Source: an uncultured Planctomycetota bacterium (lineage in GTDB: Bacteria > Planctomycetota > Phycisphaerae > UBA1845 > UTPLA1). From it: a stretch of 64,000 nucleotides of DNA. Shown in pieces: positions 1,361-29,069 of this stretch (position 1 is its first letter; the number at the start of each line of letters is the position of its first letter). The DNA is taken from contig CAADGE010000022.1 of NCBI GenBank assembly GCA_900696465.1, positions 1-64,000 on the forward strand. The letters are read 5' to 3'. Position numbers and translations under genes: made by a program. The notes under the pieces were generated by a model, which saw nothing but the letters and a program-made list of their open reading frames with translations, ran no database searches and was not told where the DNA came from.

Positions 1361-1369
1361 GGCCGCCTC

Positions 1370-1990: not shown

Positions 1991-2005
1991 GGGAAAACTC
2001 CATTC

Positions 2006-2038
2006 AAAAAAAGGGGGCGGGCTGCAAGAACCCGCCCC
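2006..2038 (-). terminator. Rho-independent terminator or attenuator
   Basis: Read on the minus strand, a GC-rich stem (GGGCGGG pairing with CCCGCCC, loop of about 9) is followed directly by seven T residues. It sits between the 70-aa gene (stop at 2049) and the 206-aa gene (start at 1990), both on the same strand. It either ends the short upstream transcript or reduces read-through into the methyltransferase operon. Confidence 0.8.
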
Positions 2039-2048
2039 GGTGGAACAA

Positions 2049-2261
2049 TTACTCCTTGTTGTCGGTGATGACGCGAAGGGTGATGCGTCCGTCGAGCGGC
2101 ACGGCCTCGATCTGGAGGTTGAAGCCGTTGCCGTCGGCGTGCGCCCATGCGGCCCCGATGCGGGTCCACACGGCCTTGCCGCCTTCGCGATCGCGCACCT
2201 GGTAGGCGACGTGCGTCGGCGATTTCGACGTGGTCTTCGGATTGTTCTTGGCGTCTGACAT
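2049..2261 (-). CDS. Small conserved plasmid/ICE protein, 70 aa
   Basis: The protein starts MSDAKNNPKTTSKSP and contains the block VWTRIGAAWAHADGNGFNL followed by EAVPLDGRITLRV. Short proteins with this W.RIG.A..H.DG.GF pattern recur near conjugation genes in proteobacterial and other plasmids and are uncharacterised. A GGAG site lies upstream of the start at 2261. The longer in-frame start at 2321 lacks support. The gene is the first on the minus strand leaving the region upstream of the relaxase, so it is divergent from the relaxase gene. Confidence 0.65.
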   Translation of the reverse strand: MSDAKNNPKTTSKSPTHVAYQVRDREGGKAVWTRIGAAWAHADGNGFNLQIEAVPLDGRITLRVITDNKE

Positions 2262-2763
2262 TGTTGGTCTCCTCTTTTCAAAGTGTCCGGCCGCGACCAT
2301 CGCGGCCTGATGGCACTGCAAAACCAGCCGCGACAGTCCGGGGGCTTGGCCTAAGCGAAGCGCAACCGGTCACAGCGGAAAATGGTGGGTCCCTGAAAGG
2401 GGAAACGATTTTCTGCTTGACCGGCCCGGCGGCGGCTGTAAGTGCCCATCAGCAAGGCCGCGCGGGCGGGACGGCACGAAGATGCGAAGAGGGGACCCCA
2501 AGACGCCGAAGCAATCCGTTCACGGCGGGCCGGATGCACCGGCGCCAACGTGCCATGCGACGCGGATGCTGGAAGTGTGAGTTGACCGCATCGCCGCGCG
2601 GGCACGGCGACAACGCAATCGCCAGTTGCGGTGCGAGACGGATCGTGTCTTCTTCGTGTCACCGTGAAACATGTTGCAGAAAGTTCCATCGGGGGGCTTG
2701 CAGACCGTGAGCACAATTGTGTATGTACGTTTGTCCTCAATGCCCCTCACCGACGATTGACTC
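2262..2763. other. Non-coding region between divergent genes; candidate oriT
   Basis: About 500 bases without a convincing gene separate the minus-strand small gene from the relaxase. The region holds a 7-bp stem hairpin at 2289-2307 (GGCCGCG/CGCGGCC) and a perfect 10-bp palindrome CACAATTGTG at 2712-2721, 43 bases before the relaxase start. MobF relaxases are usually encoded next to the origin of transfer they cleave, so oriT is expected here. I could not identify a nic site with confidence. Confidence 0.35.
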
Positions 2764-5430: not shown

Positions 5431-5433
5431 CCT

Positions 5434-5862
5434 ATGAGCGAGAGTATCCTCAAGCGTTACACCGGCCGCTCGGTTGAGAGCCTCGCCGAGGCCCGCCCGG
5501 TTCAGACCAACGCCCCTGCGATTGACAATGAAAACGCCGATGATTTCGGCGCGTTCGCGCACCTGCGCGGCATCCGCGACAGGGCCATTATGCTTGAATT
5601 GCGAAAGGCAGACGGCAGCATCACCGCCATCGGCTACGGGTACCTGGAGCGCGCCGAGTACGATCCGTCAGAGGGCATCACGCTGCACGTGCTCGGCCAG
5701 AGGATCCGCTTGAAGGGCCGCAACCTCAATGCCGAAGTCCGCCCCGCCGTCCGCCTGTTCGAGGGAATCACCCGCCACAAGGTGGCCTGGGTGCGCGAGG
5801 CCGATCCCCGCGAGAGCATGACCGCCGCCGACGGCGACACGGTCATCGACGCGATTGACTGA
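5434..5862 (+). CDS. Relaxase-operon protein of unknown function, 142 aa
   Basis: A soluble protein whose gene begins 3 bases after the relaxase stop, so it is almost certainly co-transcribed with it. It has an acidic N-terminal stretch, then a beta-rich core (HLRGIRDRAIMLELRKADGS, and LHVLGQRIRLKGRNL). The central pattern resembles a small SH3- or Sm-like barrel, but this is inference only. No catalytic motif is seen. A role accessory to DNA processing is suggested by position alone. It converges with the propeller gene, with 9 bases between the two stops. Confidence 0.65.
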   Translation: MSESILKRYTGRSVESLAEARPVQTNAPAIDNENADDFGAFAHLRGIRDRAIMLELRKADGSITAIGYGYLERAEYDPSEGITLHVLGQRIRLKGRNLNAEVRPAVRLFEGITRHKVAWVREADPRESMTAADGDTVIDAID

Positions 5863-5871
5863 TCGGAGCGT

Positions 5872-8241: not shown

Positions 8242-8477
8242 GGCAATCTCCTCGCGTAACTGTCTGCCCGACGCGTTCTATGCGGGGGCACTTTGTCGGG
8301 GGGGCTCGCACGGCACCGGCCCTGCGAGAACGGGTCGAAACCCGGGCCCGCCTCCCTAAGCGACGTTTAAGCGGGAACAAGACAACGAATTCTGCAAAAC
8401 CCTGATGGGGGGGAGTGGATGCCGTCGCAGCGATGCCAAGCTCCGCCGTTGACGTGTAGAAGCGGTCCGACGCCGGC

Positions 8478-11201: not shown

Positions 11202-11219
11202 CCTCGTCTTCCGAAGGCT

Positions 11220-11798
11220 TCACAACCGGCCATTGAGTTGATCTGCAAGCCATGCTCGGGCGTGCTTCCAGTCATTCTTAACGGTTCCCTCAGAAACCCC
11301 GAGTGCCTGGGCGGCCTGGGCGTTGGTCAACCCGGTATAGAATCGCCACTCGACGATTCTTGCAGCACGCGGGTCCTTTTCCCCTAAGCGACGAATCGCC
11401 TGGTCCAGGGCATCAGAATCCCAAGGATTCTCGTCGTCGCAGGCTGGAATCGTCACTGCCGCATCGAGGTCCAAGCGGGCGCGGCCGCCTCCGCGCTTCA
11501 CGCGCCTACGAGCCTTGCCATAGTCCTGCAGAATCTGCTTCATGGCTTTGACGGCGGCATCGAGGAAATGCGCGCAGCTTTGCCACGGCACCTCGCGTGG
11601 GCCGGCCAGTTTGAGCCACGCCTCGTGGACGAGTGCCGTTGCGCTGAGCGTGTGACCCGGACGCTCGGCCCGAAGCTGCTCCTGGGCGCAGGCCCGAAGC
11701 TGTTGATAGACGAGGGGCAGAAGCAGCCTTGCCCGCTCCTCGGCGGGAAGGGACTCATCAAAGATCAACCGCTCGGCCTGGGCGTCGCTGCTATCCAT
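11220..11798 (-). CDS. ECF RNA polymerase sigma factor, planctomycete type, 192 aa
   Basis: A sigma-70 family factor of the ECF type with regions 2 and 4. Region 2 includes LPLVYQQLRACAQEQL and LSATALVHEAWLKL. Region 4 is at the C-terminus, with RIVEWRFYTGLTNAQAAQALGVSEGTVKNDWKHARAWL as the helix-turn-helix. The SATALVHEAWLKL sequence is the hallmark of a large ECF group in Rhodopirellula and relatives. I chose the ATG at 11798; a TTG at 11822 would add 8 residues. The kinase gene follows after 18 bases and no anti-sigma gene is visible, so control by the kinase is likely (inference). Confidence 0.9.
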   Translation of the reverse strand: MDSSDAQAERLIFDESLPAEERARLLLPLVYQQLRACAQEQLRAERPGHTLSATALVHEAWLKLAGPREVPWQSCAHFLDAAVKAMKQILQDYGKARRRVKRGGGRARLDLDAAVTIPACDDENPWDSDALDQAIRRLGEKDPRAARIVEWRFYTGLTNAQAAQALGVSEGTVKNDWKHARAWLADQLNGRL

Positions 11799-12010
11799 GG
11801 CAGAGAAGATTGTACCCGCCAAATGGCGTCGAGCGATCGGCCATCTGGAGCGGAATCAGGGGACAGCTGGCGGCCTTCGCCATCCTGAACAGTGCCTCGA
11901 CCGTGGTTCTTGTCGGCCATCGTTCTCATCTGCTTGCGGGCTCAATCGCGTCGGGCGGCGTTAACTATTTCTTAAGCACAGTATGTCAGGATACTTGAGA
12001 GGAGCCTTCC

Positions 12011-12112
12011 ATGAGTCAGGGCACGCATCAAGAACAAGCGCCGAGTCGGCGGATTCTCGCAATCATGTGGTTAGTTTGCGGGGCCGCGATTCTGTTCGTC
12101 TGGATCGCGTAG
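12011..12112 (+). CDS. Small single-pass membrane protein, 33 aa
   Basis: An ORF with a strong GGAG site about 6 bases before its ATG. It encodes an N-terminal polar stretch (MSQGTHQEQAPSRR) and one hydrophobic helix (ILAIMWLVCGAAILFVWIA) reaching the stop. It ends 5 bases before the pilin gene start, which has its own AGGGAG site. This placement suggests a small accessory subunit of the transfer machinery. The family is not recognised. Confidence 0.55.
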   Translation: MSQGTHQEQAPSRRILAIMWLVCGAAILFVWIA

Positions 12113-12117
12113 GGAGA

Positions 12118-12507
12118 ATGACGTTGACAATACGATGCCGCATCGGCCGAAAGAGTGGGGATTTATCGCGGATTCGGGTGCATCACCGATGGCTTAGGCA
12201 GTTCAAGGACCAGGCTGGGGCGCGGCATGAGGGACCATGCTTGATCGTCACGGTGCTGGTCACGTGCGTGTTGTTCGGCGAACCAGCGAATGCGCAGTCG
12301 ATTGGCGACATACTGTGCAGTGTCTGGTGGCTCATTCACGACGACATAGGCCGCGGGTTGGCGACCCTTGCAATCGTTGCGTTGGGGATCGGAGCGACGC
12401 TTGGCAAGGTATCGTGGGGAATGGCAATCATGGTCTGTGTCGGAATCGGCGTGCTATTCGGCGCCAACGACCTGACCTGGGCAATAACAGGTTTCAGGTG
12501 CCTATAG
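12118..12507 (+). CDS. VirB2/TrbC-like conjugative pilin, 129 aa
   Basis: The likely major pilus subunit of a type IV secretion system. After a basic leader there is a hydrophobic export signal at about residues 41-60 with likely cleavage at ANA-QS. The mature part has two hydrophobic helices (about 80-98 and 100-116, LATLAIVALGIGATLG and WGMAIMVCVGIGVLFG), as in TrbC/VirB2. The start at 12118 has a good AGGGAG site; a longer frame from 11983 overlaps the 33-aa gene and is not favoured. The leader is longer than usual for this family. No other channel gene is next to it. Confidence 0.75.
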   Translation: MTLTIRCRIGRKSGDLSRIRVHHRWLRQFKDQAGARHEGPCLIVTVLVTCVLFGEPANAQSIGDILCSVWWLIHDDIGRGLATLAIVALGIGATLGKVSWGMAIMVCVGIGVLFGANDLTWAITGFRCL

Positions 12508-12511
12508 GCCA

Positions 12512-12718
12512 TCATCGACCTCGGCCGTTATGCTCTTTTTCGCGCTTGCGATTGATCTCCCGCAACAACGGCTGAAGCATCTGCACGACCGCTGCCGCGG
12601 CCATCACCCCCATGCACACCATCGCCACGCGGTTGAATACGACGGCATCGTTCTTCGGGGCCATGCGGGCCATCTGCTGGGCGGTGTTGGCGACGTGGAG
12701 CGGGCTGGGTTGGGTCAT
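12512..12718 (-). CDS. Small membrane protein, 68 aa
   Basis: The protein has a polar N-terminus (MTQPSPLHVANTAQQMARMA), one hydrophobic segment (FNRVAMVCMGVMAAAAVVQML) and a very basic tail (REINRKREKEHNGRGR). An AGAGG site precedes the ATG at 12718. It converges with the pilin gene, with 4 bases between stops. Function unknown; the size and topology fit small conjugation or phage-type membrane proteins. Confidence 0.55.
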   Translation of the reverse strand: MTQPSPLHVANTAQQMARMAPKNDAVVFNRVAMVCMGVMAAAAVVQMLQPLLREINRKREKEHNGRGR

Positions 12719-12801
12719 GGGGCGTCCTCTTTAAGTTGTAGTAGAAGATGAGAGATGAGGCACGCATTGATAGCGCCGCCGGGCGACGATGACAAGCCCC
12801 A

Positions 12802-13833
12802 TTACGACTGTGTCGGATTGGAACTGCCTTCCACCTTGATCGAAATCCTCTCCACGATGTTCCGCGTCACCTTGCGGTCGCGGCGGTCATAGAGCCGCGT
12901 CGTGCGCGGGTCGGCGTGCCCCAATAGTTCCTGCACGTCCTCGATGGGCACGCCCTGGTCGAGCAGGTCGGTGGCCGTCGTCGCGCGGAACGAGTGGCAG
13001 GTGAGGATCGTCGGCAGGCCGGCGGACTTGAGCCGCCGCTTGACCATGCGGTGGATGTCCTTGGCCTGGCACGCCCAGACGGCAAGTGTGCGCGTGCGTC
13101 CGCGGACCGACCGGAAGAGGGGCTCGTTGCCGTCCACCGAATCGCCGATGGCGTCGATGTACGCCTGGATGTAGCCCTGAAGGTCGTGCCGGCAAGGAAT
13201 GTCGCGCTGTCGGCCGCCTTTCTCGTCGAACCGCAGATACCACTGGCGGCCGTCGGTGTAGAAGTCGCGGCGGCGCAGCTTGGCGACGGCGCCGACGCGG
13301 GCGGCCGTGTACATCATGATGGCGAGGATCGCCCGATCGCGCAGGCCGACGACGTTGCTCACGTCGATCGACCGCAGCAGCAATCCCGCGCTGGCGGGAT
13401 CGGTCGCCGGCGTCTTGCCGGTGACGCTGCTCACCTTCGGCCCGCGCACCGCCGCCGCCGGGTTGAGCACGATGGCGTGCCGCTGGACCATCACGTCAAA
13501 GAACTTGCGGATCGCGGCCAGGTGCAGCTTGCAGGTCGGCTTCGAGGCCGGTTTTCCCTCGGTCGTCGTCAGCGTGCGGATGTAGTGGCCGACGCTGCCC
13601 GGCGGGATGCGGGCCAGCTCGAACCCCTGGTCCTCGCACCATAGCAGGAACCGGTGCACGGCGAACCGGTACGCCTTGCGGGTATAATCGTTGCCGATCT
13701 GGTCGCCGAAGAACTCGGCGTAGGCGAACTGGGCGTTGACGCTGGCTTGAGCGACGATTGCGGGCGGCTCGGCGGCGTCGAGCGACGCCGAAAGCGCCCG
13801 GTCGTGATGTGGGATGATGTCATGGTCACTCAA
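12802..13833 (-). CDS. Tyrosine recombinase (phage integrase family), 343 aa
   Basis: A site-specific DNA recombinase. The N-terminal SAM-like DNA-binding domain covers about residues 35-130. The catalytic domain has all expected residues: Arg179 (AARVGA), Lys205 (EKGGRQRDIP), His280 and Arg283 (CHSFRAT), His306 (LLGHADPRTT) and Tyr315 (RLYDRR). The length is close to XerC/XerD and to integron or plasmid recombinases. It lies inside the element and not at a junction, so it may resolve multimers, move a sub-element or mark an older nested insertion. GTTAAC boxes lie just upstream. Confidence 0.92.
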   Translation of the reverse strand: MSDHDIIPHHDRALSASLDAAEPPAIVAQASVNAQFAYAEFFGDQIGNDYTRKAYRFAVHRFLLWCEDQGFELARIPPGSVGHYIRTLTTTEGKPASKPTCKLHLAAIRKFFDVMVQRHAIVLNPAAAVRGPKVSSVTGKTPATDPASAGLLLRSIDVSNVVGLRDRAILAIMMYTAARVGAVAKLRRRDFYTDGRQWYLRFDEKGGRQRDIPCRHDLQGYIQAYIDAIGDSVDGNEPLFRSVRGRTRTLAVWACQAKDIHRMVKRRLKSAGLPTILTCHSFRATTATDLLDQGVPIEDVQELLGHADPRTTRLYDRRDRKVTRNIVERISIKVEGSSNPTQS

Positions 13834-14332
13834 GCGAACTCCGTGCCGCGATGGGTTGCCGATCCGTTAACGCGCCCCCTGCCCGTTAACTCGTGGTGTA
13901 TAACACCTTTTGTCTACCACAATCGGGTATAGCACGGATGAGTTAACGAATGATTAACGGCCGGGTTGTCCGTAATGATCATCATCGCTCGCGGTATACC
14001 ACTAACGACGTGACACGGTGATCGTTGGGTCGCAATTCCGACTTGTCGCACGTCAATCGGCGCAATCGCAATGGTGCGACTTCCTCACTAGTCCATTTGC
14101 TGGAAGCGCAACCGACCGAGCCCACAGGAGCCTAACGATTCAGTGTGCAAGGGGCCGATCTGACCTGTACTCGCCCACCTCGCCCGAAGCCTAAGCTATT
14201 ATGAGTCGGGTGTTTATATGCCTGCCCCTGGGACCGCAAATCGCTCGTGGCGAACCGCCACAGTTGCGCGGCAACGTCGCGATATGCTTGGTGGTCGCCG
14301 AGGAACCAGACTCCGCGACCGAGGTATACCCC
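13834..14332. promoter_or_regulatory. Repeat-rich non-coding region upstream of the tyrosine recombinase
   Basis: About 500 bases with no gene. The first 130 bases hold three GTTAAC boxes (13866, 13885, 13942) and one TTAACGG (13954). The 13883 copy (CCGTTAACTCG) is inverted relative to the 13940 copy (GAGTTAACG). Between them is a 13-base palindrome GGTGT-ATA-ACACC at 13895-13907. This layout suits recombinase core/arm sites or operators of the divergent genes. The rest (14000-14330) shows nothing clear apart from a GAGGT ribosome site just before 14333. Confidence 0.5.
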
Positions 14333-16250: not shown

Positions 16251-16400
16251 CGCTATACACAGGTGTGATTGTCTGTCTTTAAGAACGCCACACGGGAAGG
16301 AATTTGTCAATCGCTTTTGTGATGGGCTGGTTGTTGTGGCGACTTGCCACCTGATGCACCGAGACGCTGGTTATAAGTGAGCATGCTGAGAGGTGCTCAC

Positions 16401-17096
16401 ATGAATCCAGATAATGAACACAAAGTCGATCGCGTCTATGAAGTCGTTGCCGAACACCAACGTCGTGCGGATTGGCACGGCCAGCCGATGATTGAACTGC
16501 TTCAGACGTGGGCTGATCGGTTTGTCGCGGAGTTTAATCTCGACATCCCCGAAGTCGTCATCGGCATCGACCCACTTCCCTGCACGCGGTACGGCCAGTT
16601 CCGCATGGGGCATAACGGCCTCGGCCTTCGCGGCGAAATCACCCTGAACGCCCGATACCTGGACGGGAAGCGCCCCTTGTGGGAAATCCTCGGCACCCTG
16701 CTCCATGAACTGTTGCACGGCTGGCAGCAGGCGCACGGCACTCCGAGCAAGAAGAATCACCACAACAGGGAACTCCGCGAGAAAGCGGCGCAACTCGGGT
16801 TGCTGATCGGGCCGACCGGTCTCACCGGCTACGCCACTGGCGGCCCCTTTAAGGCGCTGCTCTGGCAATTCGGGGTCGAGGCCCCGGCGACGGAGTCGCC
16901 GATTCCCGAGCGACGGCCGCGCGGTCAATCCAAGCTAAAAAAGTGGACGTGCAAGTGTCCCGTCAACGTGCGCTGCGCCGTCGAAATGCAGGCGCAGTGC
17001 CTCGTGTGCGGAGAGCGATTTGCGCTGTGCGCGAACGCGCACCGGCCACGACAAGGCGAAACGAAGTCGCAGACAGAAGCGAGAGGTGCCGCATGA
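16401..17096 (+). CDS. SprT-like zinc metalloprotease domain protein, 231 aa
   Basis: The metallopeptidase motif is HELLHGWQQAHG, with a further His pair (KKNHHNREL) about 10 residues on, as in SprT-like domains. A zinc-ribbon-like tail follows (TCKCPVNVRCAV and QCLVCGERF). SprT/Spartan-family proteins cleave DNA-bound proteins in eukaryotes; the bacterial mobile-element versions are uncharacterised. The start at 16401 has a GAGAGGT site. The stop overlaps the start of the sigma-like gene (ATGA), so the two are coupled. A role in clearing DNA-protein complexes during transfer is possible but is inference. Confidence 0.8.
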   Translation: MNPDNEHKVDRVYEVVAEHQRRADWHGQPMIELLQTWADRFVAEFNLDIPEVVIGIDPLPCTRYGQFRMGHNGLGLRGEITLNARYLDGKRPLWEILGTLLHELLHGWQQAHGTPSKKNHHNRELREKAAQLGLLIGPTGLTGYATGGPFKALLWQFGVEAPATESPIPERRPRGQSKLKKWTCKCPVNVRCAVEMQAQCLVCGERFALCANAHRPRQGETKSQTEARGAA

Positions 17097-17959: not shown

Positions 17960-17994
17960 CAAGCGGTTGACAGCAAGCGGGAGTTACCGCTTGC
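17960..17994. promoter_or_regulatory. CAAGCGG repeat cluster upstream of parB
   Basis: CAAGCGG occurs at 17960-17966 and 17974-17980 in direct orientation, and its complement CCGCTTG at 17987-17993. The last two form a perfect 8-bp inverted repeat (GCAAGCGG-gagtta-CCGCTTGC). A TTGACA hexamer (17967-17972) lies between the first two. The cluster ends 17 bases before the parB start, so it may be a ParB or regulator binding site. The rest of 17726-17959 shows no gene. Confidence 0.5.
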
Positions 17995-18011
17995 AGGCAG
18001 GGAGAAACGAC

Positions 18012-18878
18012 ATGGTCGTGCGGCAATCAGTTGACATCCCATTGAACCGAATCCAGCTCGGCGAGAACGACCGCGAGGTCCCGCCGCGCGAGTCGCTGCT
18101 TGGCATGGCCAAGTCGATCGAGACGGTGGGCGTGCTGCATCCGGTCATCGTCCGCCGCGACGGCGACGGCTATGAGCTCATTGTCGGAATGCGGCGATTC
18201 CTTGCATCGCAGATCGCGGGCCGAGGGACGATTCCGGCGCGCGTGATCGAAGGTGATTGCGAACGGGCAATGCTGCTCGCCTCGCGGCTAGTCGAGAACA
18301 TTCACCGTGAAAGTCTGCTCGACCTGGACAAGGCCCGGGCGTTCTCGCGGTACATGAACGAAACGGGGCTTTCTCCGTCGCAGGCCGCCGTCGAACTCGG
18401 CGTCAGCCCGTCGTCGGTCAGTAATCTGCTCACGCTGCTGGAGTCCTCGCCCAAGGTGCAGGAACTGGTCGAACGCGGCGAGATTCCCGCCAGCACCGCC
18501 GTCGAGATCGCGCGCCTCGGCGACGCCGAATCGCAGGATCGCCTGGCCGCCGACGCCGTAGAGCACGGTCTCTCGCGCGACGCGGTCGCGGCCAAGGTCA
18601 AACAGTCCAAGCGCGAAGGGGGCGAGTCCGAACGCGAAGGACCCTCGCGGGCAACGGCCGTGCTGGCGCCCGGGCGGGCGGTGACCGTCGCCTGTCCCGG
18701 CCTGACGCTGGAGCGCTTCATCGACTGCCTGGGCGAATTGCTGACCAAGGCCCGCCGGGCGCGAACCAAGGGCCACACATTGCCCGACTTGTGCAAGGCG
18801 CTCAAAGAGAAGTCAAAGAAGCAAATTGCGCCGTCGTCGCGGTGTCTCGTTGGCGCTGTGGGCGGCGATGCACCCTGA
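18012..18878 (+). CDS. ParB/RepB/Spo0J-family partition protein, 288 aa
   Basis: The N-terminal ParB domain contains VGVLHPVIVRR, ELIVGMRRFLASQIAG and the VENIHRESLLDLDKARAF box that matches the arginine-rich nucleotide-binding patch of the family. A helix-turn-helix follows (GLSPSQAAVELGVSPSSVSNLL), then a helical C-terminus. The start at 18012 has an AGGGAGA site. No ParA is adjacent, so this is an orphan ParB. It may help maintenance of the excised circular form or act as a regulator. Confidence 0.88.
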   Translation: MVVRQSVDIPLNRIQLGENDREVPPRESLLGMAKSIETVGVLHPVIVRRDGDGYELIVGMRRFLASQIAGRGTIPARVIEGDCERAMLLASRLVENIHRESLLDLDKARAFSRYMNETGLSPSQAAVELGVSPSSVSNLLTLLESSPKVQELVERGEIPASTAVEIARLGDAESQDRLAADAVEHGLSRDAVAAKVKQSKREGGESEREGPSRATAVLAPGRAVTVACPGLTLERFIDCLGELLTKARRARTKGHTLPDLCKALKEKSKKQIAPSSRCLVGAVGGDAP

Positions 18879-19229: not shown

Positions 19230-21014
19230 ATGTTCAGATTCCTCATTCGATTATCGCGGGCGTTGCTTGTCGCGTTTGCGGCCCTGGTCATCGGCAGCGT
19301 GATGTATGTCGAGGGCGAGAGAATTGCCGCTGAGGCACGCTCCGGGAATTCGGTAGCGGCTGCCGACACCGGAGCAGCGCATGTCAATCAACACGACCAG
19401 CCCGCTTTCACAATTGTCGAAACGAATCGCCGCCGGCGCACGATTCGCGCTCAAGTCCTGATGATGGGCGGAGTCTCAATGACGCTTGCCGGGTGCGTCG
19501 CGCCGATGTGGGTAGTCGTCTCCGGCCTGGTCAGACTCCTGCGCGGCGATCCGGCGAAGCGAACGCAATCGCCGGAGAAGCGGTGGAGCCTTGATGCGCC
19601 GCTGCTTCGCTTCTCGCGCAAGTCGGTGTGGACCATCGGCGCCGCCTGTCAGGGCTGCCAAATCTGGGGGTCCACTGGTTCCGGGAAAAGCACGGGATCG
19701 CTGGCCGCCATCTGCCTGGCATTTTTGCGCGCGGGATTTGGCGGCGTCTTCCTGACCTGCAAGCCGGACGATCGCGCCGTCTATGAGCGCTACATCCGTG
19801 AAGCCGGGCGCGAAGCGGACCTGATGCTGTTCGGTCCCGGACACAAGCTCACGTTCAATTTCATTGATGCGGAACTGAAGGCCGGGGCCGGCTTCGTCGA
19901 GAACCTGACCGCGCTGCTGACGACGGTCACTGAACTGGCGGACCGCAATTCCGGGCACGGCGGCCGCGAGGATGAATCGTTCTGGCGAAAGATGGTCCGC
20001 CAGTTGTGCCGCAATTCCATTCAACTCCTGGTGATGGCCAAGGGCAAGGTGACGATCGCCGATCTCTACCGCCTGGTCACGACCGCTCCGCTCAGCGTGG
20101 AGCAAGCGTTGTCGGAATCCTGGCAGAAGAGTTCGTTCTGCTATGCCTGCCTGGAGGAAGCGGACGGCAAGCTCAAGAGCGCCCAGGAGCGAGCGGACTA
20201 CGAACTGATCGTATCGTTCTTCACCTTCGAGTGGGCCGGCCTCAGCGATCGAACGAGAAGCACCGTGCTCAGCTCGTACTCGACCACGATCGACGTGCTC
20301 AACCGCGGAGTCATGCGCGACCTGATTTCCAGCCCGGAGTCCACGGTCCGGCCCGACATGGCGCAGGACGGCAAGCTGATCATCGTCGATGCGCCGGTGA
20401 TGGTGCAAAACGAGCTCGGCCAGTATCTGCAAGTCATCTTCAAGTATTGCCTGCAGCGGGCACAGAGCCGGCGCGACACGTCGGTCAATCCAAGGCCGGT
20501 CTTTCTGGTCTGCGACGAGAGTCATCTGCTCGCCGTCTCTGCCGACCAGGTATTCCAGACCACGGCCCGCAGCACTAGGACGTGCGTGGTCTACGCCACG
20601 CAGTCGATCTCGAACTACCTGGCCGCGTTCGGCGGCGACAAGGCCGAGCCGGAGGTGCACAGCCTGCTCGGCAATCTCCAGCTTCAAGTCTTCCACCAGC
20701 AGACTGACATCCGCACCAATCAATATGCTTCCGAATTGGTCGGCCGTGCCCGTCAGATTCTGTGTAACTCGAACAATAGTTATCAGCAGGACGATTGGCC
20801 GCTGATGATGAACGGCCTCGGCGCGCCGACGCAAACGACAGCGGGCATGCAGGAGGTCATCGACTTCGAGCTACAGCCCGGAGCGTTCACCTCGCTGGCG
20901 ACCGGCGGTCCACCGAAGTGGGAAGTCGAGGCCATCGTCTACCAGGGCGGCCGGCGATTCGCCGAGACCGGCCGAACCTGGATGCCGGTGACGTTCAAGC
21001 AGAAGACGAAGTAA
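19230..21014 (+). CDS. VirD4/TraG-type coupling ATPase (T4CP), 594 aa
   Basis: The inner-membrane ATPase that would bring the relaxase-DNA complex to the secretion channel. Two membrane segments lie at about residues 9-27 and 73-103. The Walker A motif is GSTGSGKS (147-154) and a Walker B is VFLVCDESHLLA (near 425). Later parts such as TCVVYATQSISNYL match the TraG/VirD4 motor core. The length is typical. It begins the last operon-like run of the element, which ends in the integrase. Together with the MobF relaxase it gives the element the minimum set for mobilization. Confidence 0.88.
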   Translation: MFRFLIRLSRALLVAFAALVIGSVMYVEGERIAAEARSGNSVAAADTGAAHVNQHDQPAFTIVETNRRRRTIRAQVLMMGGVSMTLAGCVAPMWVVVSGLVRLLRGDPAKRTQSPEKRWSLDAPLLRFSRKSVWTIGAACQGCQIWGSTGSGKSTGSLAAICLAFLRAGFGGVFLTCKPDDRAVYERYIREAGREADLMLFGPGHKLTFNFIDAELKAGAGFVENLTALLTTVTELADRNSGHGGREDESFWRKMVRQLCRNSIQLLVMAKGKVTIADLYRLVTTAPLSVEQALSESWQKSSFCYACLEEADGKLKSAQERADYELIVSFFTFEWAGLSDRTRSTVLSSYSTTIDVLNRGVMRDLISSPESTVRPDMAQDGKLIIVDAPVMVQNELGQYLQVIFKYCLQRAQSRRDTSVNPRPVFLVCDESHLLAVSADQVFQTTARSTRTCVVYATQSISNYLAAFGGDKAEPEVHSLLGNLQLQVFHQQTDIRTNQYASELVGRARQILCNSNNSYQQDDWPLMMNGLGAPTQTTAGMQEVIDFELQPGAFTSLATGGPPKWEVEAIVYQGGRRFAETGRTWMPVTFKQKTK

Positions 21015-21086
21015 CCCGCGCCTTGAACGTGTTACGCAAAGCCGCAGTCAAGCCGTTGGCGCTGAAAAGAATTGGGAGTCTCTGCC

Positions 21087-21680
21087 ATGTACAACGATCG
21101 CCCGCCGGGACCGATCGAACATACCAAGGCCGTGCTGAGCTGGATCGCGTTCGCGGCCGGCGTGCTCGCGGTTTCCGTCGAGGTGTTTCTGCACCGAAGC
21201 CGCACCTTCGGCGAGCGATACCTTGGAATGCAGGCCGCGGCCGTCATGCTCGTCGTGCTGTTCTACGGCGCGTGCTGGGAAGGCCACGACGTGTCGCCGC
21301 TGCTCGGCTTCCTGCTGGCGTATCTCTTCATGTGTTTCGTGGTCCGCATCGGCGGATTGATCGAACGCCGCCGCACCGGCGTGTGGGAGCATTCTCTCTA
21401 CAACGGGTTCCCGCGGATTCTGAGACTCATGCCGTGGCTCGGCGAACACCGGGCCAAGCTGTACGTCGAACCCATGCTCGTGTTCCTGGTCGGCGTCTTC
21501 ACCATGCCGCTGAACGAGCCGCTGGGCGGCTACCTGATTCTGGCTTCGATGGGCCTGCTTCTCAGCGTCAATCTCACCGTCGGCTACGAGCGCACGCGCG
21601 CCATGGACATGAATGACGCGGCAATCGAACAGCGTGACCTTGCGGAGCGGTTCCGCGAGCGTCGCGGCAACAGGCAGTAA
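21087..21680 (+). CDS. Multispanning membrane protein, 197 aa
   Basis: Not recognised. Four or five hydrophobic segments are seen: SWIAFAAGVLAVSVEVFL, MQAAAVMLVVLFYGAC, PLLGFLLAYLFMCFVV, PMLVFLVGVFTMPLN and LGGYLILASMGLLLSV. The tail is charged and cytoplasmic-looking. The start at 21087 has a GGGAGT site. Position directly after the coupling protein suggests an accessory membrane component of transfer. Confidence 0.6.
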   Translation: MYNDRPPGPIEHTKAVLSWIAFAAGVLAVSVEVFLHRSRTFGERYLGMQAAAVMLVVLFYGACWEGHDVSPLLGFLLAYLFMCFVVRIGGLIERRRTGVWEHSLYNGFPRILRLMPWLGEHRAKLYVEPMLVFLVGVFTMPLNEPLGGYLILASMGLLLSVNLTVGYERTRAMDMNDAAIEQRDLAERFRERRGNRQ

Positions 21681-21698: not shown

Positions 21699-21992
21699 AT
21701 GGCACGTCAACGCGAAAACCAGAAACCCAAGATCGGCGCGGGGTCGTTTTCGGCTTGGATGAGGACCGGTTGGAGAGAAATCCGCGCCGCCCTGTATCCC
21801 GAATCCAACATTGCCCAGCAACCGGATGGCGGAATCTGGGGCAACAAGACGCCCGGAGAGGTGATGGAGGAGAAGCAGGGCGAAGCGCGCGACCCTGACG
21901 AGAAGCCCTCGATCCTGAAGGAACGAATGGAGCAACTCGCGAAGTGTCGCGACGGACGCGAGCCGGAGCCGCCGGGCCGCGACCGGGACTGA
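21699..21992 (+). CDS. Small hydrophilic protein of unknown function, 97 aa
   Basis: The protein is strongly charged, with MARQRENQKPKIGAGSFSAW at the start and a C-terminal part rich in Glu, Arg and Pro. No domain is recognised. A GGAGG site precedes the start. It lies 18 bases after the membrane protein gene and 32 bases before the J-domain gene, so it belongs to the same transcript. Confidence 0.5.
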   Translation: MARQRENQKPKIGAGSFSAWMRTGWREIRAALYPESNIAQQPDGGIWGNKTPGEVMEEKQGEARDPDEKPSILKERMEQLAKCRDGREPEPPGRDRD

Positions 21993-22024
21993 TGGGACGA
22001 GGCATTACCAGGGAGTCAAGAATC

Positions 22025-22810
22025 ATGCATCCAGCAGTGTATTGGGGAATCCGCGTCGGCGCCGGACTCGTTCGCAAGTGGCTGTCGGGTTGCGACGCGC
22101 CGTCGAACAACATCCGGGTATCGCGCACGGATGAAGTCGCCCTGCCGATCGAGGCGGTTCGCGATGCGATCGACACCTTTCTCAAGCGGCTGAAATTCGA
22201 GCTCGTGGACGCCGATGACGATGAGGCGGATGTTTACCAGCGCGGGGATCGCAGCATCAAGGCGTTGCCGTGCTCGCGCGACGTGGCCATGTCCGACGTG
22301 CCGACGCTTGCCGCCGTCGGCTACCGCAGGAAGGCTCATGGAACCACGGTGTGTCTCGCGGCCGGGCCCTTTCCCGATATCCGGTTTACGCCGGCGGCGG
22401 CAGCGCACGTCAGGGAACATCTGGAGGAGTTGTGCCGTCACGCCTTCGGGCTCTTGCGGGATGTGGCCGCAGACATGGCGTCGAATCGCGCGGAGACCAA
22501 TTGCACGAGCCGGCAGCGGGAGGATACCCATGCCCTGGGCGCACAGACCCTCGCCGACCTGGCCACGCTCGGGCTTGGTCCCGGCGCTTCATTGGCACAG
22601 GTGCAATCCGCCTTCCGCGATGCGTGCGGGAAGTACCACCCGGACCGGCTCATCGGACAAAGCCTCGCCCCTCACCTGGTAGAACTCGCGAGCGGGCGAT
22701 TCAAGGAAGTGAATGCCGCCTACCACCGGCTGAAGGACGCGTTGGCGCCCTCGAACAATTCTGGCTCAGTCTGGACAACCCCGCCGCGCGGCGGAGGTTC
22801 CGCGCATTGA
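22025..22810 (+). CDS. C-terminal J-domain protein, 261 aa
   Basis: Residues about 176-243 form a J domain: LGPGASLAQVQSAFRDACG, then KYHPDRL with the HPD tripeptide near 205, then FKEVNAAYHRLKDAL. J domains recruit and stimulate DnaK-type Hsp70. The N-terminal 170 residues are unlike DnaJ: there is no Gly/Phe region or zinc finger. The extreme N-terminus (AVYWGIRVGAGLVRKWL) could be a membrane-associated or amphipathic helix. The start at 22025 has a GGGAGTC site. It may link the host Hsp70 to transfer or replication proteins of the element (inference). Confidence 0.75.
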   Translation: MHPAVYWGIRVGAGLVRKWLSGCDAPSNNIRVSRTDEVALPIEAVRDAIDTFLKRLKFELVDADDDEADVYQRGDRSIKALPCSRDVAMSDVPTLAAVGYRRKAHGTTVCLAAGPFPDIRFTPAAAAHVREHLEELCRHAFGLLRDVAADMASNRAETNCTSRQREDTHALGAQTLADLATLGLGPGASLAQVQSAFRDACGKYHPDRLIGQSLAPHLVELASGRFKEVNAAYHRLKDALAPSNNSGSVWTTPPRGGGSAH

Positions 22811-22901: not shown

Positions 22902-23117
22902 ATGCGTCCCGCCAACCCCGAAACCCGATCCCGCCGCAGGCCGTTGCATGATGGCATCACGGTTCCGGAAGGCGCGCCGGCCTGGATCACGCCCGCGCTG
23001 ATCCGTGAGACGCTGGCGACGTGGCAACCCTTCTACCGCGACTCGATGACCGTAGACGACGCCGTTAGAATCCTCGCCAGCGTGGGACGGTTGTTCGAGG
23101 TCTTGTCGCGGGGATGA
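22902..23117 (+). CDS. Small integrase-associated protein, 71 aa
   Basis: The core reads PAWITPALIRETLATWQPFY followed by MTVDDAVRILASVGRLFEVL. I know similar short proteins next to recombinases in planctomycete mobile elements, without a function. It ends 3 bases before the serine recombinase start, so the two are co-translated. It might be a recombination directionality factor by position, but no such similarity is visible. Confidence 0.55.
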   Translation: MRPANPETRSRRRPLHDGITVPEGAPAWITPALIRETLATWQPFYRDSMTVDDAVRILASVGRLFEVLSRG

Positions 23118-23120
23118 ACG

Positions 23121-24599
23121 ATGAACCGGTATGTGGCGCTGGCACGGGTATCAAGCCGGGAACAGGAGCGCGAAGGCTTTTCGCTGGCGGTGCAGGAGGA
23201 TGCACTCAAGCGCTACGCCGCTTCGACCGGCGGCGAAATTGTCCGCCTGTTTCGCATCGCCGAGACCGCGAGCAAGCGGGATGAACGTAAGACGTTCAAG
23301 GAGCTGGTCGCCTTCGCTAAGAAAAACGCGGCGAATCTCGACGCCCTGCTCTTCTACAAAGTGGACAGGGCCGCACGTAATTTATTTGATTATGTCGAAC
23401 TGGAACGGCTGGAGAGCGAGCACGGCCTCGCCTTCGTCTCCGTCTCCCAGCCGACTGAAAACAACCCGGCCGGCCGAATGATGCGGCGAACTCTCGCCAA
23501 CATGGCGAGCTTCTATACGGAACAGCAATCGGTCGATGTCCGCGAAGGTCACGCCCGTCGCGTCCAGGAAGGCTGGTTCGTCGGTGCCGCCCCCTACGGC
23601 TACAGGAACGTCCGCAAGGACGGCCGTGGCGTTATCGAAGTCGATCCGTCACGCGCCGAAACCGTTCGGCGAATCTTTCACCTCTACGCCTACGAGCCGC
23701 TGACCGTCGATCAGCTCATCGCCCGGCTTGCCGATGAAGGGCTGACATACCGCCCCTCTTCTCCCCGCTTCCCGCGAAGCTCGGTGTACGCGATCCTTCG
23801 CGACCGCTGCTACCTCGGCGAAGTCGAATACGGCGGGCAGTGGTATCCCGGCAAGCACGAGCCGCTCGTCGATCGGGCGACCTGGGACCGCGTGCAGGTC
23901 CTGCTCGGCGGCAAGACCTACCGCTCGCACGAGCTGACCTACGCCGGCGGCCTCATCCGCTGCGGCCACTGCGGCAACCTCATCACCGGCGAACAGGTCG
24001 TGAAACCTTCGACCGGCAAGCGGTACGTCTATTACCGCTGCACCATGTACAAGCTCGCGCCCGGGCATCCGCAGGTCCGCCTCAACGAGGCGAAGCTGGA
24101 CGAGCAGGTCCTCGCCGTCTTCCGCTCGATCAAGCAGCCCGACACCGTCCGCGACTGGTTCTCGAACGCACTGCGCGAATGGTCGAAACGAGAGCGGGCC
24201 GAGGCATCCACGCAATCAGACGTGTCGCAGCGCGAGATAACGCAACTTCAACAGCAACAGGACCGGCTGCTCAACCTCCGCCTGCTCGACGAGATCGACG
24301 CCGACACCTTCGCCCGCAAGTCCACGGAAATCCGCGACAAGCTCGCGGCCGCTTCACTCCGCGTCGAAGCCGCGAACCGCGACCGAGGCGAACAGGCGGA
24401 ATTGGCGATCAGGGTTTTCGAACTCTCGCAAGCCCTTGTCGAGAAATGGCTTTCGGCTGATTACGCCGCCAAACGCCAACTGCTCGAAATCGTCTTTTCG
24501 AACTTCACGCTCGACGGCGCAACTCTTTGCTATGAAGTGAATAAGCCCTTCGACGTGCTCATCGAAGGGCTCGAAACGAGTCAGACTCGGGGCGACTAG
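23121..24599 (+). CDS. Large serine recombinase (integrase), 492 aa
   Basis: The N-terminal resolvase domain has the catalytic Ser11 in ALARVSSREQ. A recombinase domain follows (APYGYRNVRKDGRG and later SVYAILRDRCYLGEV). A zinc ribbon (RCGHCGNLITGE, then YYRC) and a coiled-coil (QREITQLQQQQDRLLNLRLL) come next. This is the standard order for large serine integrases. The last three codons and the TAG stop lie inside the 3' end of the tRNA-Pro gene on the other strand, which places this gene at the right end of the element. It is the most likely enzyme for its integration and excision. Confidence 0.95.
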   Translation: MNRYVALARVSSREQEREGFSLAVQEDALKRYAASTGGEIVRLFRIAETASKRDERKTFKELVAFAKKNAANLDALLFYKVDRAARNLFDYVELERLESEHGLAFVSVSQPTENNPAGRMMRRTLANMASFYTEQQSVDVREGHARRVQEGWFVGAAPYGYRNVRKDGRGVIEVDPSRAETVRRIFHLYAYEPLTVDQLIARLADEGLTYRPSSPRFPRSSVYAILRDRCYLGEVEYGGQWYPGKHEPLVDRATWDRVQVLLGGKTYRSHELTYAGGLIRCGHCGNLITGEQVVKPSTGKRYVYYRCTMYKLAPGHPQVRLNEAKLDEQVLAVFRSIKQPDTVRDWFSNALREWSKRERAEASTQSDVSQREITQLQQQQDRLLNLRLLDEIDADTFARKSTEIRDKLAAASLRVEAANRDRGEQAELAIRVFELSQALVEKWLSADYAAKRQLLEIVFSNFTLDGATLCYEVNKPFDVLIEGLETSQTRGD

Positions 24600-24661
24600 A
24601 TTCGAACTAGCGACCTCCTGGTCCCAAACCAGGCGCTCTAACCAGACTGAGCTACGCCCCG
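24587..24661 (-). tRNA. tRNA-Pro (anticodon TGG)
   Basis: Read on the minus strand, a cloverleaf starts CGGGGCGTAGC and ends with CGCCCCG plus discriminator A. The 7-bp acceptor stem is perfect. The D arm has GCTCAGTCTGGTTAGAGC, the anticodon arm CCTGG-TTTGGGA-CCAGG gives anticodon TGG, and the T arm contains GTTCGAATC. CCA is not encoded. A TATACT -10 box lies at 24670-24675, 8 bases upstream. The 3' end overlaps the serine recombinase gene, so this is the attachment target of the element. Confidence 0.95.
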
Positions 24662-25186: not shown

Positions 25187-25226
25187 CGCCGCTGCGTCTG
25201 ATAACTGTTGTTTGATTGCAGCGGCG
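25187..25226 (+). promoter_or_regulatory. Hairpin in the leader of the Cys-rich protein gene
   Basis: A perfect 9-bp stem CGCCGCTGC/GCAGCGGCG encloses a 22-base AT-rich loop and ends 18 bases before the start codon, just before the AGGAGAG ribosome site. It could be an operator or an mRNA stability element. Confidence 0.4.
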
Positions 25227-25244
25227 TCCTCAGGAGAGAGTTCC

Positions 25245-28200
25245 ATGAAACGTCACCCTGTTTACGCCCTCGTTCTGCTTGCTCTCGGCTTGGTGGTGGC
25301 CATCACCGGGGCACAGCCGCCCGCCACACTGATTGAGGCCGCTCCGACGACTGACCTTACCGGAACGGGTTCTCCACGAGGTACGCTCTGCCAGCCGGCG
25401 CCCGGCGGCCTGAGCTGCGGCATCATTGATTGTCCCGACGGCGTTTCGAAATGCCGACCGCGATGCGTCAAGCAGCTTGCTACGGGCGAGATCGAGATCG
25501 TCGAGTGTGACTGCCGTACCGGTGACGAGTGCTACGTCCTCTGGGCAGCCGGCACACTCCCCTTCTGTAACACGTTCTGTCCGCCCGGCGAGGTCTGCGT
25601 ACGAACCGAGTTCCTCGATCCCGTGACCGGCGATCTGACCATCTGCTGCGATTGTCAGCCGACGAACGAGTGCGGGCCGGAGTCCAACGGTCTTTCGTGC
25701 AGAACCGTCACCTGCGAGGACCCCACCGAGCAGTGCGTGACGAAGTGCATCGTCATCAATCAGGGTGTGATCACCATCGACGAATGCGACTGCCAGTCTC
25801 CGGATGAGTGCCACGTTTCCTGGACGCCGGGTACGCCGCCTTCGTGCGTGGGTGGATGTCCGCCCGGCATGGTCTGCGAGCAACAGGTCACGACCACGCC
25901 GACCGGCGGCACGCGAATCTGTTGTGTCTGTGTGCCCGAAGTCCCGGAAATCTGCACGATTACACCGGAAGGCACCGACTGCGTGGGGCCCTGTCCGGTC
26001 GGTTCGCCGATACCGTGCCGCGCATCAAAAATCACCGAAAACCCGCTCACCGGCGACATCGTGGTCGAGCGGTGCGGTTGCGATTGCTGGCTCCGCCGCA
26101 ACGACGTCCCGCCCTACCAGTTCATCGGCTGCGTGGGTAAGGTCTGCGCCGAGACCGGCGAACCGTGCGAGATGGTCGTCACGAAGAATGGCGATGGTAC
26201 GATCACCTATGACTGCTGCCAGGAGCCGCCGGTCTGCGAACCGGAGGAGGACCGCCTTTCCTGCAAGCCGGTCGAATGTCCCGATCCGACAAGTCAGCTC
26301 TGTCTGCCCAAGTGCGTGCTCGTTGCTTTCGACGGCACGGTGACCATCAACGATTGCGACTGCCGCTCGCCGAACGAGTGTCATGTCCTGTTTGCTCCCG
26401 GCGCCGACCCGTCGTGCGTCGGCGGCTGTCCGCCGAACACGATCTGCGAACAGCAGATTTTCACCACGCCGGAAGGCACGCTGATCTGCTGCGAGTGTGT
26501 GCCTGATCCGCCGCGCTGCGAACCGACCGAAGATCGCCAGAACTGCAAGCCGTTTATCTGCCCGAACCCGGAGGAAACCTGTCGGCCGCGGTGCGTGCGC
26601 TATCGCGCGCCGGGCGGAGGCCTCCCGGGCTTTACGGAGGTCCTCGACTGCGTCTGTCGCAACATCGAGGAATGTCACGTCGTGCAGATCGGCGGCGCCG
26701 CGCCGTCGTGCGAGGGCTTCTGCCCCCCGGGAATGTTCTGTGCGCGTAACATCGTGGAGTACTCGGACGGCTCCGTCGAAATCTGCTGCGACTGCGTCGC
26801 GCCGGAATGCGAATGCCCCGGCGACGTGAACGGCGACCATAAGGTGGACGGCCTCGATATTGCCGGCTTCGTGCGCTGCCTGCTGGGTAATCCGCTGCCG
26901 GGAGACAACTGTACCTGTGCAGATCTGAACGGCGACGGCCTTTACAACTTGCTGGACATCCAGTTCTTCATTCAGCTTCTGTTTGAGAAGCCCGTCTGCA
27001 ACGATACCGAGTGCTGCCCGCGGGAGGATCTGGTGCTCGACCTTGCAACAGGCGTTGACGGTGATGGAAATCTGATTCCTGCGGGGCAGGATGACGATAA
27101 CTGGGTCGTCACGCTCGATGCCGGCGGCGGCACCGTTCCGCGTCCGGCGGAGATCGTTACGCCGCATCCGTTCTGGCAGACGATTCCGGGGACGCAGTGG
27201 ATCAGTTCCGACTATTACGGCCCCAACGGCGACTACGCCTACGAGTTCTGCTTCTGCCTGGACGACCGCTTCAAGTTCCCGACGCTCACCGTGCAGGTCC
27301 GCGGGGACGACGCCTGCGCCGTTTATCTCAACGGCAACTTCCTCGGCTTCGGCGCGACGTTTAACGCGGCCACGCCGGCGCTGATTACCACAAGCAATCC
27401 GGCGTTCTTCCTGCCGGGCGAGAATTGTCTGCGCGTCGAAGTGCAGAACATCGGCGGACCTCCGACCGGCATCAACCTCGCCGGCACCGTCACCGCACGG
27501 GACGGCAAGTGCTGCTGCCCGCCGAAGGACCTCGATAAGCAAATCGCCTCGGGCGTCGACGACCCGCTCGGCAACCTGATCCCGTTCGGGCAGGACGACG
27601 ACACCTGGACGGTCACGGTCGACGCCAGCGGCGGCAGCGTGCCGCGCCCGGCGACCGTGATCACGCCGCACCCGGCATGGTTGACCATACCAGGCACGCG
27701 GTGGATCAGTGCGGCGCAGACGGGGCCGAATGGAGACTACGTCTATCAGTACTGTTTCTGTCTCGATCCGCGCTTCAAGAATGCGGCGCTGTCATTGCAG
27801 CTGCGAGCCGACGACTACGCAACCGTCTGGCTCAACGGCGTGCAGGTAGGAGCGACCCCGACCAGCTACTCCTTCAACACGCCCAACCCCACCAGTGTGG
27901 TCGTCACCAACCAGGCCCTCTTCCGCCCGTGCGAAAACTGCGTTGAGATCGTCGTCACCAACTCGCACGGCGTGGTTACCGGTCTGAATGTGGCCGGCTC
28001 CATCACCGCCGACGACGGACTCTGCTGTGACGATCGGGTACCGTTTCAGTACTCCTGCTGCATGCCCGATGGCAGCTGCATCGACCTGAAGCCGGGCGAT
28101 GACCGCTGCCCGATCGGTGGGACCCTGATCCTGGGGCCTTGCGAGGCGACGGTGCCGTGCTGTCTGGCGGACGGTTCGTGTATCTACACGGATCCGCGGT

Positions 28201-29069
28201 GCTGTCAGATGGCACACGGGGCGATCCTCAGCGTCGCGGCGGACTGCCAGACAGCGCCGGAGGCGTGCTGCTACGAGCAGCAAGGGGTCACGTTGTGCAT
28301 CGACGCGAATCCGGCCTGCTGCATCGAGCGATACGGTGGTACGCCGCAGGGACCGGGGACGATCTGCCTCGGTGACCTCAACAACAATGGTACAGACGAC
28401 GCCTGCGAAGGCCCTGGCAATCTGTGCGGACCGAATCCGCACGATCCCCTGAGCTGCCTGCCGACGCAGTGCCCGAGCCCTGCGAATGAGCAGTGCATGC
28501 CGAAGTGTGTGCGCATGGACAGTGTAAGTGGCGCGATCCTGGAGGTCATGGACTGCTCGTGTCAGGGTCCAGACACCTGTCGCGTCGCCTGGGACCCGGC
28601 GATGCCGATCCTACCTTACTGCACTGGCACGTGTCCTCCAGGGTATATCTGTGTGCAGAGAAATGTTCATCTCGGCGATGGCACGCAGATGGTGTGTTGT
28701 AACTGCGAGTTGGACCCGTATTGTCCGAGTCAAACGCTTTCCGGCCAAATGTGTTTCTACTATTGGCCGTCCCGTGAGGGGTGTTCGCCGCCCACGCCGG
28801 GCAAGATTTGCGAATCGAAGATCTTGGTTTTCTACCCGCCACTCTTCGCGTTGGAATGCAACTGTTTTGTGCCGGGCGAGAACGTCTGCGGGCCAATCGA
28901 CGTGGTGACCGAGCATACGGGGGTAAGTCACATGACTTGCCGACAGGGTTGTCCGCCAGGTGCCGCATGTGTGATCTTCGTGAATGGTGTGCCGACGGCT
29001 GCGAATACGATCAGTACGACTGATCTGCAGTACACGGATATGGTGGAGTGTCGGTGTTACAACCCGTAG
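25245..29069 (+). CDS. Large secreted Cys-rich modular protein with dockerin-like pair, 1274 aa
   Basis: A signal peptide covers about residues 1-25 (HPVYALVLLALGLVVAITGA). Five Cys-rich modules of about 85-95 residues follow, each with a pattern like LSC...C...C, I.ECDC, ECHV...PG..PSC, CPPG..C and ICC.C; the third is divergent. Next comes a dockerin-like pair (GDVNGDHKVDGLDIAG and DLNGDGLYNLLDIQ). Two similar beta-rich domains of about 140 residues follow, each with NLIP.GQDDD.W, PR...TPHP and WLNGV or YLNGN, resembling carbohydrate-binding sandwiches. CC.PDGSC motifs come next, then two more Cys-rich modules at the C-terminus. Function unknown; an extracellular structural or adhesive role is likely. 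The start at 25245 has an AGGAGAG site. Confidence 0.88.
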   Translation: MKRHPVYALVLLALGLVVAITGAQPPATLIEAAPTTDLTGTGSPRGTLCQPAPGGLSCGIIDCPDGVSKCRPRCVKQLATGEIEIVECDCRTGDECYVLWAAGTLPFCNTFCPPGEVCVRTEFLDPVTGDLTICCDCQPTNECGPESNGLSCRTVTCEDPTEQCVTKCIVINQGVITIDECDCQSPDECHVSWTPGTPPSCVGGCPPGMVCEQQVTTTPTGGTRICCVCVPEVPEICTITPEGTDCVGPCPVGSPIPCRASKITENPLTGDIVVERCGCDCWLRRNDVPPYQFIGCVGKVCAETGEPCEMVVTKNGDGTITYDCCQEPPVCEPEEDRLSCKPVECPDPTSQLCLPKCVLVAFDGTVTINDCDCRSPNECHVLFAPGADPSCVGGCPPNTICEQQIFTTPEGTLICCECVPDPPRCEPTEDRQNCKPFICPNPEETCRPRCVRYRAPGGGLPGFTEVLDCVCRNIEECHVVQIGGAAPSCEGFCPPGMFCARNIVEYSDGSVEICCDCVAPECECPGDVNGDHKVDGLDIAGFVRCLLGNPLPGDNCTCADLNGDGLYNLLDIQFFIQLLFEKPVCNDTECCPREDLVLDLATGVDGDGNLIPAGQDDDNWVVTLDAGGGTVPRPAEIVTPHPFWQTIPGTQWISSDYYGPNGDYAYEFCFCLDDRFKFPTLTVQVRGDDACAVYLNGNFLGFGATFNAATPALITTSNPAFFLPGENCLRVEVQNIGGPPTGINLAGTVTARDGKCCCPPKDLDKQIASGVDDPLGNLIPFGQDDDTWTVTVDASGGSVPRPATVITPHPAWLTIPGTRWISAAQTGPNGDYVYQYCFCLDPRFKNAALSLQLRADDYATVWLNGVQVGATPTSYSFNTPNPTSVVVTNQALFRPCENCVEIVVTNSHGVVTGLNVAGSITADDGLCCDDRVPFQYSCCMPDGSCIDLKPGDDRCPIGGTLILGPCEATVPCCLADGSCIYTDPRCCQMAHGAILSVAADCQTAPEACCYEQQGVTLCIDANPACCIERYGGTPQGPGTICLGDLNNNGTDDACEGPGNLCGPNPHDPLSCLPTQCPSPANEQCMPKCVRMDSVSGAILEVMDCSCQGPDTCRVAWDPAMPILPYCTGTCPPGYICVQRNVHLGDGTQMVCCNCELDPYCPSQTLSGQMCFYYWPSREGCSPPTPGKICESKILVFYPPLFALECNCFVPGENVCGPIDVVTEHTGVSHMTCRQGCPPGAACVIFVNGVPTAANTISTTDLQYTDMVECRCYNP

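Follow-up and report, generated by a model that had tools for sequence, protein, structure and literature searches.

The window analyzed here, that is, the whole 64,000-nucleotide stretch of planctomycete DNA, raises the question of whether a large serine recombinase can serve as the integrase of an element inserted at the 3' end of a tRNA gene. Serine integrases are prime DNA insertion tools, and how they change their target is poorly understood. The recombinase open reading frame (ORF) ends in CGG GGC GAC TAG (24588–24599), and the coordinates of the ORF and of the tRNA gene located by ARAGORN bear out the original prediction that the last 3 codons and the stop codon lie inside tRNA-Pro(TGG) on the opposite strand. 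The further proposal that such a target is unusual for serine integrases agrees with published surveys, although it is the rule within the present family. In prophages of Mycobacterium abscessus, the enzymes that act on tRNA attB sites are tyrosine integrases (PMC8092301), and the streptococcal serine IMEs with a known site target protein genes (PMC5357655), with the serine recombinase DsiB at the tmRNA gene providing a clear precedent for RNA-gene targeting (PMC3146451). Our literature search, with most subscription journals outside its scope, returned no description of a clade of tRNA-targeting serine integrases or of serine-recombinase cassette arrays in Planctomycetota. We conclude that the recombinase belongs to a distinct clade of large serine integrases that use the 3' ends of RNA genes. 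It very probably serves to integrate an element, mobilizable or conjugative, at the 3' end of tRNA-Pro(TGG), a reading that takes in target switching within the family and cassettes moved in trans.

The recombinase gene and the element behind it

The features of the locus, in window coordinates, are as follows:

1–24592, no strand: right-hand part of the integrated element, its left end most simply placed beyond the contig start, at G000:C35:358651–358725 (distal-end, backbone, and G001 comparisons)
2764–5430, plus: MobF/TrwC relaxase with helicase (PF08751; NF041492, 198 bits against a cut-off of 100)
5434–5862, plus: backbone ORF of unassigned function adjoining the relaxase (conserved in the elements of G001, G002, G006, G014, G040, and G047)
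16377–17096, plus: SprT-like backbone ORF (weak Pfam match; element comparison)
17967–18878, plus: ParB-like protein (Pfam; element comparison)
19230–21014, plus: type IV coupling protein, TraD/TrwB-like (PF10412, PF12696; conserved upstream of the recombinase)
21072–21680, plus: conserved backbone ORF, orf21072 (element comparison)
21944–22810, plus: DnaJ-domain protein of the backbone (Pfam; element comparison)
22902–23117, plus: conserved 71-aa partner ORF directly upstream of the recombinase (match in 87 of 93 loci)
23121–24599, plus: large serine recombinase (integrase), 492 aa, with the stop codon from the tRNA gene (PF00239, PF07508, PF13408; relatives end in tRNA 3' ends)
24543–24572, minus: terminator-like hairpin that follows the tRNA, lying antisense within the last recombinase codons, KPFDVLIEGL (z −4.0; compensatory changes)
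24587–24597, minus: tRNA-side copy of the shared core AGTCGCCCCGA (the same 11 bp recur at the distal end on C35)
24587–24661, minus: tRNA-Pro(TGG), the target gene, intact (ARAGORN)

The Pfam domains PF00239, PF07508, and PF13408 (resolvase, recombinase, and zinc ribbon) are those of a large serine recombinase, with the catalytic serine in the N-terminal resolvase domain and a coiled coil between the zinc-ribbon strands in the predicted model of one relative. Residues R9, S11, S12, D82, R83, and R86 are invariant. The relatives in the PDB are the A118, TP901-1, and SPbeta (YokA) integrases, and the closest NCBIfam names are CcrB, XisF, and CcrC, every score falling far under its cut-off. Judging from sequence, the enzyme is presumably catalytically active.

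The backbone from relaxase to recombinase is conserved among related elements, not all of which carry every gene. Both a MobF relaxase and a coupling protein, the combination that defines an ICE or IME, are present on the element; no type IV secretion system was recognized among the window ORFs scanned, which are a part of the ORFs of an element that also extends into the contig gap. The 71-aa partner ORF, to which no Pfam or NCBIfam family could be matched, is a candidate directionality factor or regulator.

A near-copy of the element resides at tRNA-Pro(GGG) in genome G001, where window positions 615–13961 (13.4 kb) are matched at 95.2% DNA identity. The 2 recombinases are 96% identical and the DNA of their ends 88.7%, and the similarity stops at the tRNA gene; together with the discovery of a distal end bearing the shared core (see below), this supports the prediction that the element has its right end at the junction. 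The neighboring permease of the TGG locus, compared between the same 2 genomes, reaches only 75% protein identity, a difference that points to recent transfer of the element between different tRNA-Pro genes. The permease also adjoins tRNA-Pro(TGG) in G001, G003, and G014, all of which lack the recombinase at that locus. The proposed comparison with an unoccupied target thus yielded TGG loci without the recombinase, but no perfectly empty TGG site in a close strain. The recombinase–tRNA arrangement was not seen without an element.

Two further features of the region were recorded. The element encodes a tyrosine recombinase (12802–13833, minus strand), which is 93% identical in G001 and 86% identical in G006, and the cargo beside it (an ECF sigma factor, a kinase with repeats, and a beta-propeller/dockerin protein) shares 98% to 99.9% protein identity with G001. 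Between the tRNA and the conserved permease, positions 25212–29069 (plus strand) encode a protein of 1285 aa with cysteine-rich repeats and a dockerin domain, relatives of which occur elsewhere in other genomes.

Distal end, shared core, and the hairpin behind the tRNA

The elements of G001, G004, G014, and G047, when compared, proved to share the distal end GTTCAACTGGYGTnnnGTCRCCCCGA, which is part of a conserved sequence of approximately 75 bp that terminates in a target-matching core (GTTCAACTGGTGTCCAGTCGCCCCGA). A 75-bp profile built of this end gave a single match in the window's genome, at C35:358651–358725 on the minus strand (E 1.8e-18), where 100 bp separate the core from the end of the contig, toward which the element side points. 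The window itself contains no distal copy of the tRNA end, a search for a long copy having found none there. The original suggestion was to look for this copy to the left of the window, and it is located on contig C35 (358651–358675). The genome contains exactly 1 left end and 1 full-length recombinase of this family, and contig C22 starts at window position 1. This is most simply read as a single element split by an assembly gap, running from the left end on C35 through the gap to window positions 1–24592. Because 118 bp separate tRNA-Pro(CGG) from the end of contig C5, the C35 end could in principle belong to the CGG locus, but C5 is the less likely partner. Synteny between C35 and the TGG locus is only partial, and the contig ends compared (window start, C35, C5, and C45) have no exact overlap.

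The shared core measures 11 bp in the present element and 6 to 14 bp in most others, and CCCCGA is common to most intact pairs. We infer that crossover takes place within CCCCGA (24587–24592), because the T-stem part of the core in every case agrees with the local tRNA rather than with the element. Integration would then use the core, over 6 to 11 bp, to join the 3' end of the tRNA to attP, which is composed of a conserved left arm, the core, and a right arm formed by the final codons of the recombinase itself; crossover in CCCCGA would keep the tRNA sequence intact, the element would supply the tRNA with a new terminator-like hairpin, and the recombinase frame would borrow its stop codon from the tRNA. 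In the rejoined site, the hairpin sequence that lies behind the distal core comes directly after tRNA-Pro, and this junction equals junctions found in relatives.

The hairpin within the recombinase 3' end begins 14 nt past the tRNA, on the tRNA strand, and has folding z-scores of −4 to −7 in the window and 3 relatives. Over the 39 relatives compared, pairing is kept in 96% of cells, and both sides have changed in 5 of the 10 pairs; none of 500 shuffles scored as high, and slid controls were much lower. The T-rich 3' flank suggests a terminator, and the hairpin may replace the tRNA terminator displaced by the insertion. The 3' end of the recombinase gene would thus be at once coding sequence, attP arm, and tRNA terminator, which makes it instructive as to how constraints can overlap.

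The end sequence is present in 35 of the 114 genomes of the window's order, often several times in a row, whereas the reversed pattern, searched as a control, had no matches. Stretches that contain a tRNA-Pro account for 28 distal-end sites, every one of them downstream of that gene and on the same strand, and the cores of these sites fit the local tRNA better than shuffled tRNA (44/5000 shuffles). One such site, in G082, is situated between the 2 genes of a tandem pair of tRNA-Pro(TGG) (L185:6485–10361).

Target switching and the open reading frame across the family

Scanning 84,980 species genomes for the recombinase yielded 359 relatives, of which the best 80 were analyzed; almost all of these are from Planctomycetota, including Blastopirellula marina and Zavarzinella formosa. 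ARAGORN located an RNA gene antisense to the recombinase 3' end, overlapping by 4 to 13 nt, in 59 of the best 80 (49 Pro, 6 Ala, and 4 Ser). The complement of a T-loop lies at the recombinase end in 75 of the 80 (72 by pattern and 3 by eye), and one further relative has the attP form. Within the window's order, recombinases 46% to 96% identical are placed alike against RNA genes, nearly always tRNA-Pro (TGG, GGG, or CGG). G006 carries 1 recombinase copy at each of the 3 tRNA-Pro isoacceptor genes, and G047, a single contig (CP054190.1), carries 2 copies. The more distant family member of G002, 46% identical, sits at a tmRNA 3' end. A search of plasmids returned no recombinase relative above 60% identity.

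This recurrence bears on 2 other explanations of the locus. That a chromosomal recombinase overlaps a tRNA gene here by chance has practically no probability, because an antisense RNA gene recurs at the same place among the best 80 relatives; the same offset in 75 of them, against several tRNA genes, refutes it. It is also highly improbable that the tyrosine recombinase inside the element (12802–13833) is the true integrase and the serine recombinase a passenger. Targeting of tRNA genes is typical of tyrosine integrases, and the element does encode one, but this enzyme is matched only in the elements of G001, G006, and G040 and is absent in those of G004, G014, G047, and other loci tested, whereas the serine recombinase is always at the junction. 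Furthermore, the att core is short (6 to 14 bp), as for serine integrases. Given this patchy occurrence beside a constant serine recombinase, we rejected the tyrosine enzyme as the integrase and retain the serine recombinase in that role.

In the recombinase tree, users of tRNA-Ser and tRNA-Ala form nested clades within the tRNA-Pro users, with the target labels clustering far beyond shuffles. To judge from these sequences, the family is ancestrally directed to tRNA-Pro and has switched to tRNA-Ser and tRNA-Ala via core change, and probably in the same way to tmRNA and tRNA-Lys. Elements at tRNA-Ala have the distal arm followed by GCCTCCA. In G002 (L302:9459–9535), the same arm carries the core GTCCCAGCGCTCCCA 2.2 kb downstream of tRNA-Lys(TTT), the tRNA 3' end being identical over 15 bases, which makes tRNA-Lys another probable target in that genome. 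With these core variants beside an unchanged arm, a constant arm and a variable core appear to be the rule for the family. Two more G002 arms, L301:9707–9768 and L303:4956–5015, have the cores CCCAGTGTCTCCA and CCCAGTGTCTTCA, to which no RNA genes were assigned. A single clade thus offers a constant attP arm with a swapped core of 6 to 15 bp that tracks tRNA-Pro, tRNA-Ala, tRNA-Ser, and probably tRNA-Lys and tmRNA, a natural mutational series that renders target switching directly testable.

None of the best 80 relatives has a stop before the crossover, the recombinase frame staying open as far as the core in all of them, and the stop codon is supplied by the target. At attP-type junctions (L236, L039, L042, and L211), the frame runs on into RGD-x-TPVELF, often with a stop 26 to 31 codons further. 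The circular form might therefore encode an extra tail of approximately 30 aa, and integration, by swapping in tRNA-encoded residues, would alter the activity or stability of the enzyme and lock the element in. Both the open frames and the read-through into a tail are in keeping with such a switch; analogous repressor switches exist (PMC4557955, PMC8092301), and McMurdie et al. suggested the same for DsiB, the frame of which is likewise open through att and which is possibly fully functional only as the circular form (PMC3146451). We nevertheless consider the switch unlikely: the tails in recombinase-less cassettes diverge past approximately 10 codons, the predicted tail helices are mostly of low to moderate confidence, and the codon-position test of the tail was non-significant (p = 0.13, 20 independent pairs), an excess so weak that we do not claim protein-level selection on the tail.

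Recombinase-less cassettes and known systems

The end sequence also bounds units of 0.6 to 8 kb that lack a recombinase and lie behind tRNA-Pro genes, many of them with 1 to 3 ORFs; G038 has 3 such units and no detectable recombinase. The cargo includes an alpha/beta hydrolase, a flavin oxidoreductase, a methyltransferase, a CYTH protein, a TIR protein, and 23S-rRNA intervening-sequence (IVP) proteins, and unrelated cassettes have only the terminal ~100 bp in common, up to the core. A 0.58-kb mini-cassette encoding an IVP (PF05635) occurs as homologous units at TGG in G001 (L131:1706–2110) and at CGG in G008 (L196:9122–9481), with the core as the endpoint in both. Behind many distal ends lies similar sequence that includes a TTGCCGC hairpin. 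We considered the TTGCCGC..GCGGCAATAGAGCAGG hairpin as the native tRNA terminator and rejected this reading: the ~500 bp behind it are shared among several flanks and IVP mini-cassettes, so that the hairpin may itself belong to a common cassette.

Small units bearing only the end sequence stand in arrays behind tRNA-Pro genes, and their movement is probably in trans. It is possible, although less probable, that the arrays are instead what is left of full elements that accumulated at tRNA-Pro and decayed, given that recombinase 3' fragments are found at some junctions and that accretion is common among integrative elements. Against decay, many units are compact, with 1 to 3 intact ORFs, a full 75- to 105-bp end, and differing contents, and a similar small cassette ends exactly at the core at TGG in one genome and at CGG in another. 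If the arrays are indeed moved in trans, planctomycetes would own a cassette-capture system built on a serine recombinase. A broader proposal, which we regard as doubtful, is a serine-recombinase counterpart of the integron, in which elements at tRNA-Pro capture and shuffle cassettes marked only by an end of approximately 75 to 105 bp with a tRNA-matching core, and attP in frame makes the C-terminus of the enzyme dependent on integration. Like integrons, these arrays consist of small units of one or a few genes with a conserved end of that length, served by 1 recombinase; unlike in integrons, that enzyme is a serine recombinase and not the tyrosine integrase IntI, and the cassettes are larger and in either orientation. 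No conserved or covarying attC-like fold was found over the end sequence.

By analogy, the element would work like the Dehalococcoides ssrA islands and the SCC elements of staphylococci. The former (McMurdie 2011, PMC3146451), compared by published description, have a serine recombinase of approximately 500 residues, DsiB, at the 3' end of an RNA gene, with the frame running through att to a stop outside the element, as in all 80 relatives here, and several islands can occur in a row at one site. DsiB, however, targets the ssrA (tmRNA) 3' end rather than tRNA-Pro, tmRNA being used here only by the 46% identical relative of G002, and it is accompanied by a small second serine recombinase, DsiA, whereas the 71-aa ORF lacks that domain. 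SCC elements (CcrAB/CcrC) similarly insert at the 3' end of a conserved gene by means of large serine recombinases and form composite arrays including units without ccr (PMC9430635), and CcrB is the best NCBIfam match of the recombinase, albeit at 87 bits against an equivalog cut-off of 900. Their target is rlmH/orfX, with paired CcrA and CcrB, as opposed to tRNA-Pro. We assigned the element to neither group, because their defining targets and partner genes are not found here. The serine integrases of phages and ICEs/IMEs (phiC31, Bxb1, A118, and TP901-1) share the domain order, predicted architecture, and short core but use protein genes or other sites, in contrast to the RNA gene 3' ends of the present clade.

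A single-gene cassette at tRNA-Pro(TGG) in G014 (L132:10684–11793) encodes a TIR domain protein weakly similar to ThsB, a possible defense cargo, and an array cassette in G023 (L177:5565–8252) encodes an 895-aa protein similar to the phage defense protein Ppl of PADLOC.
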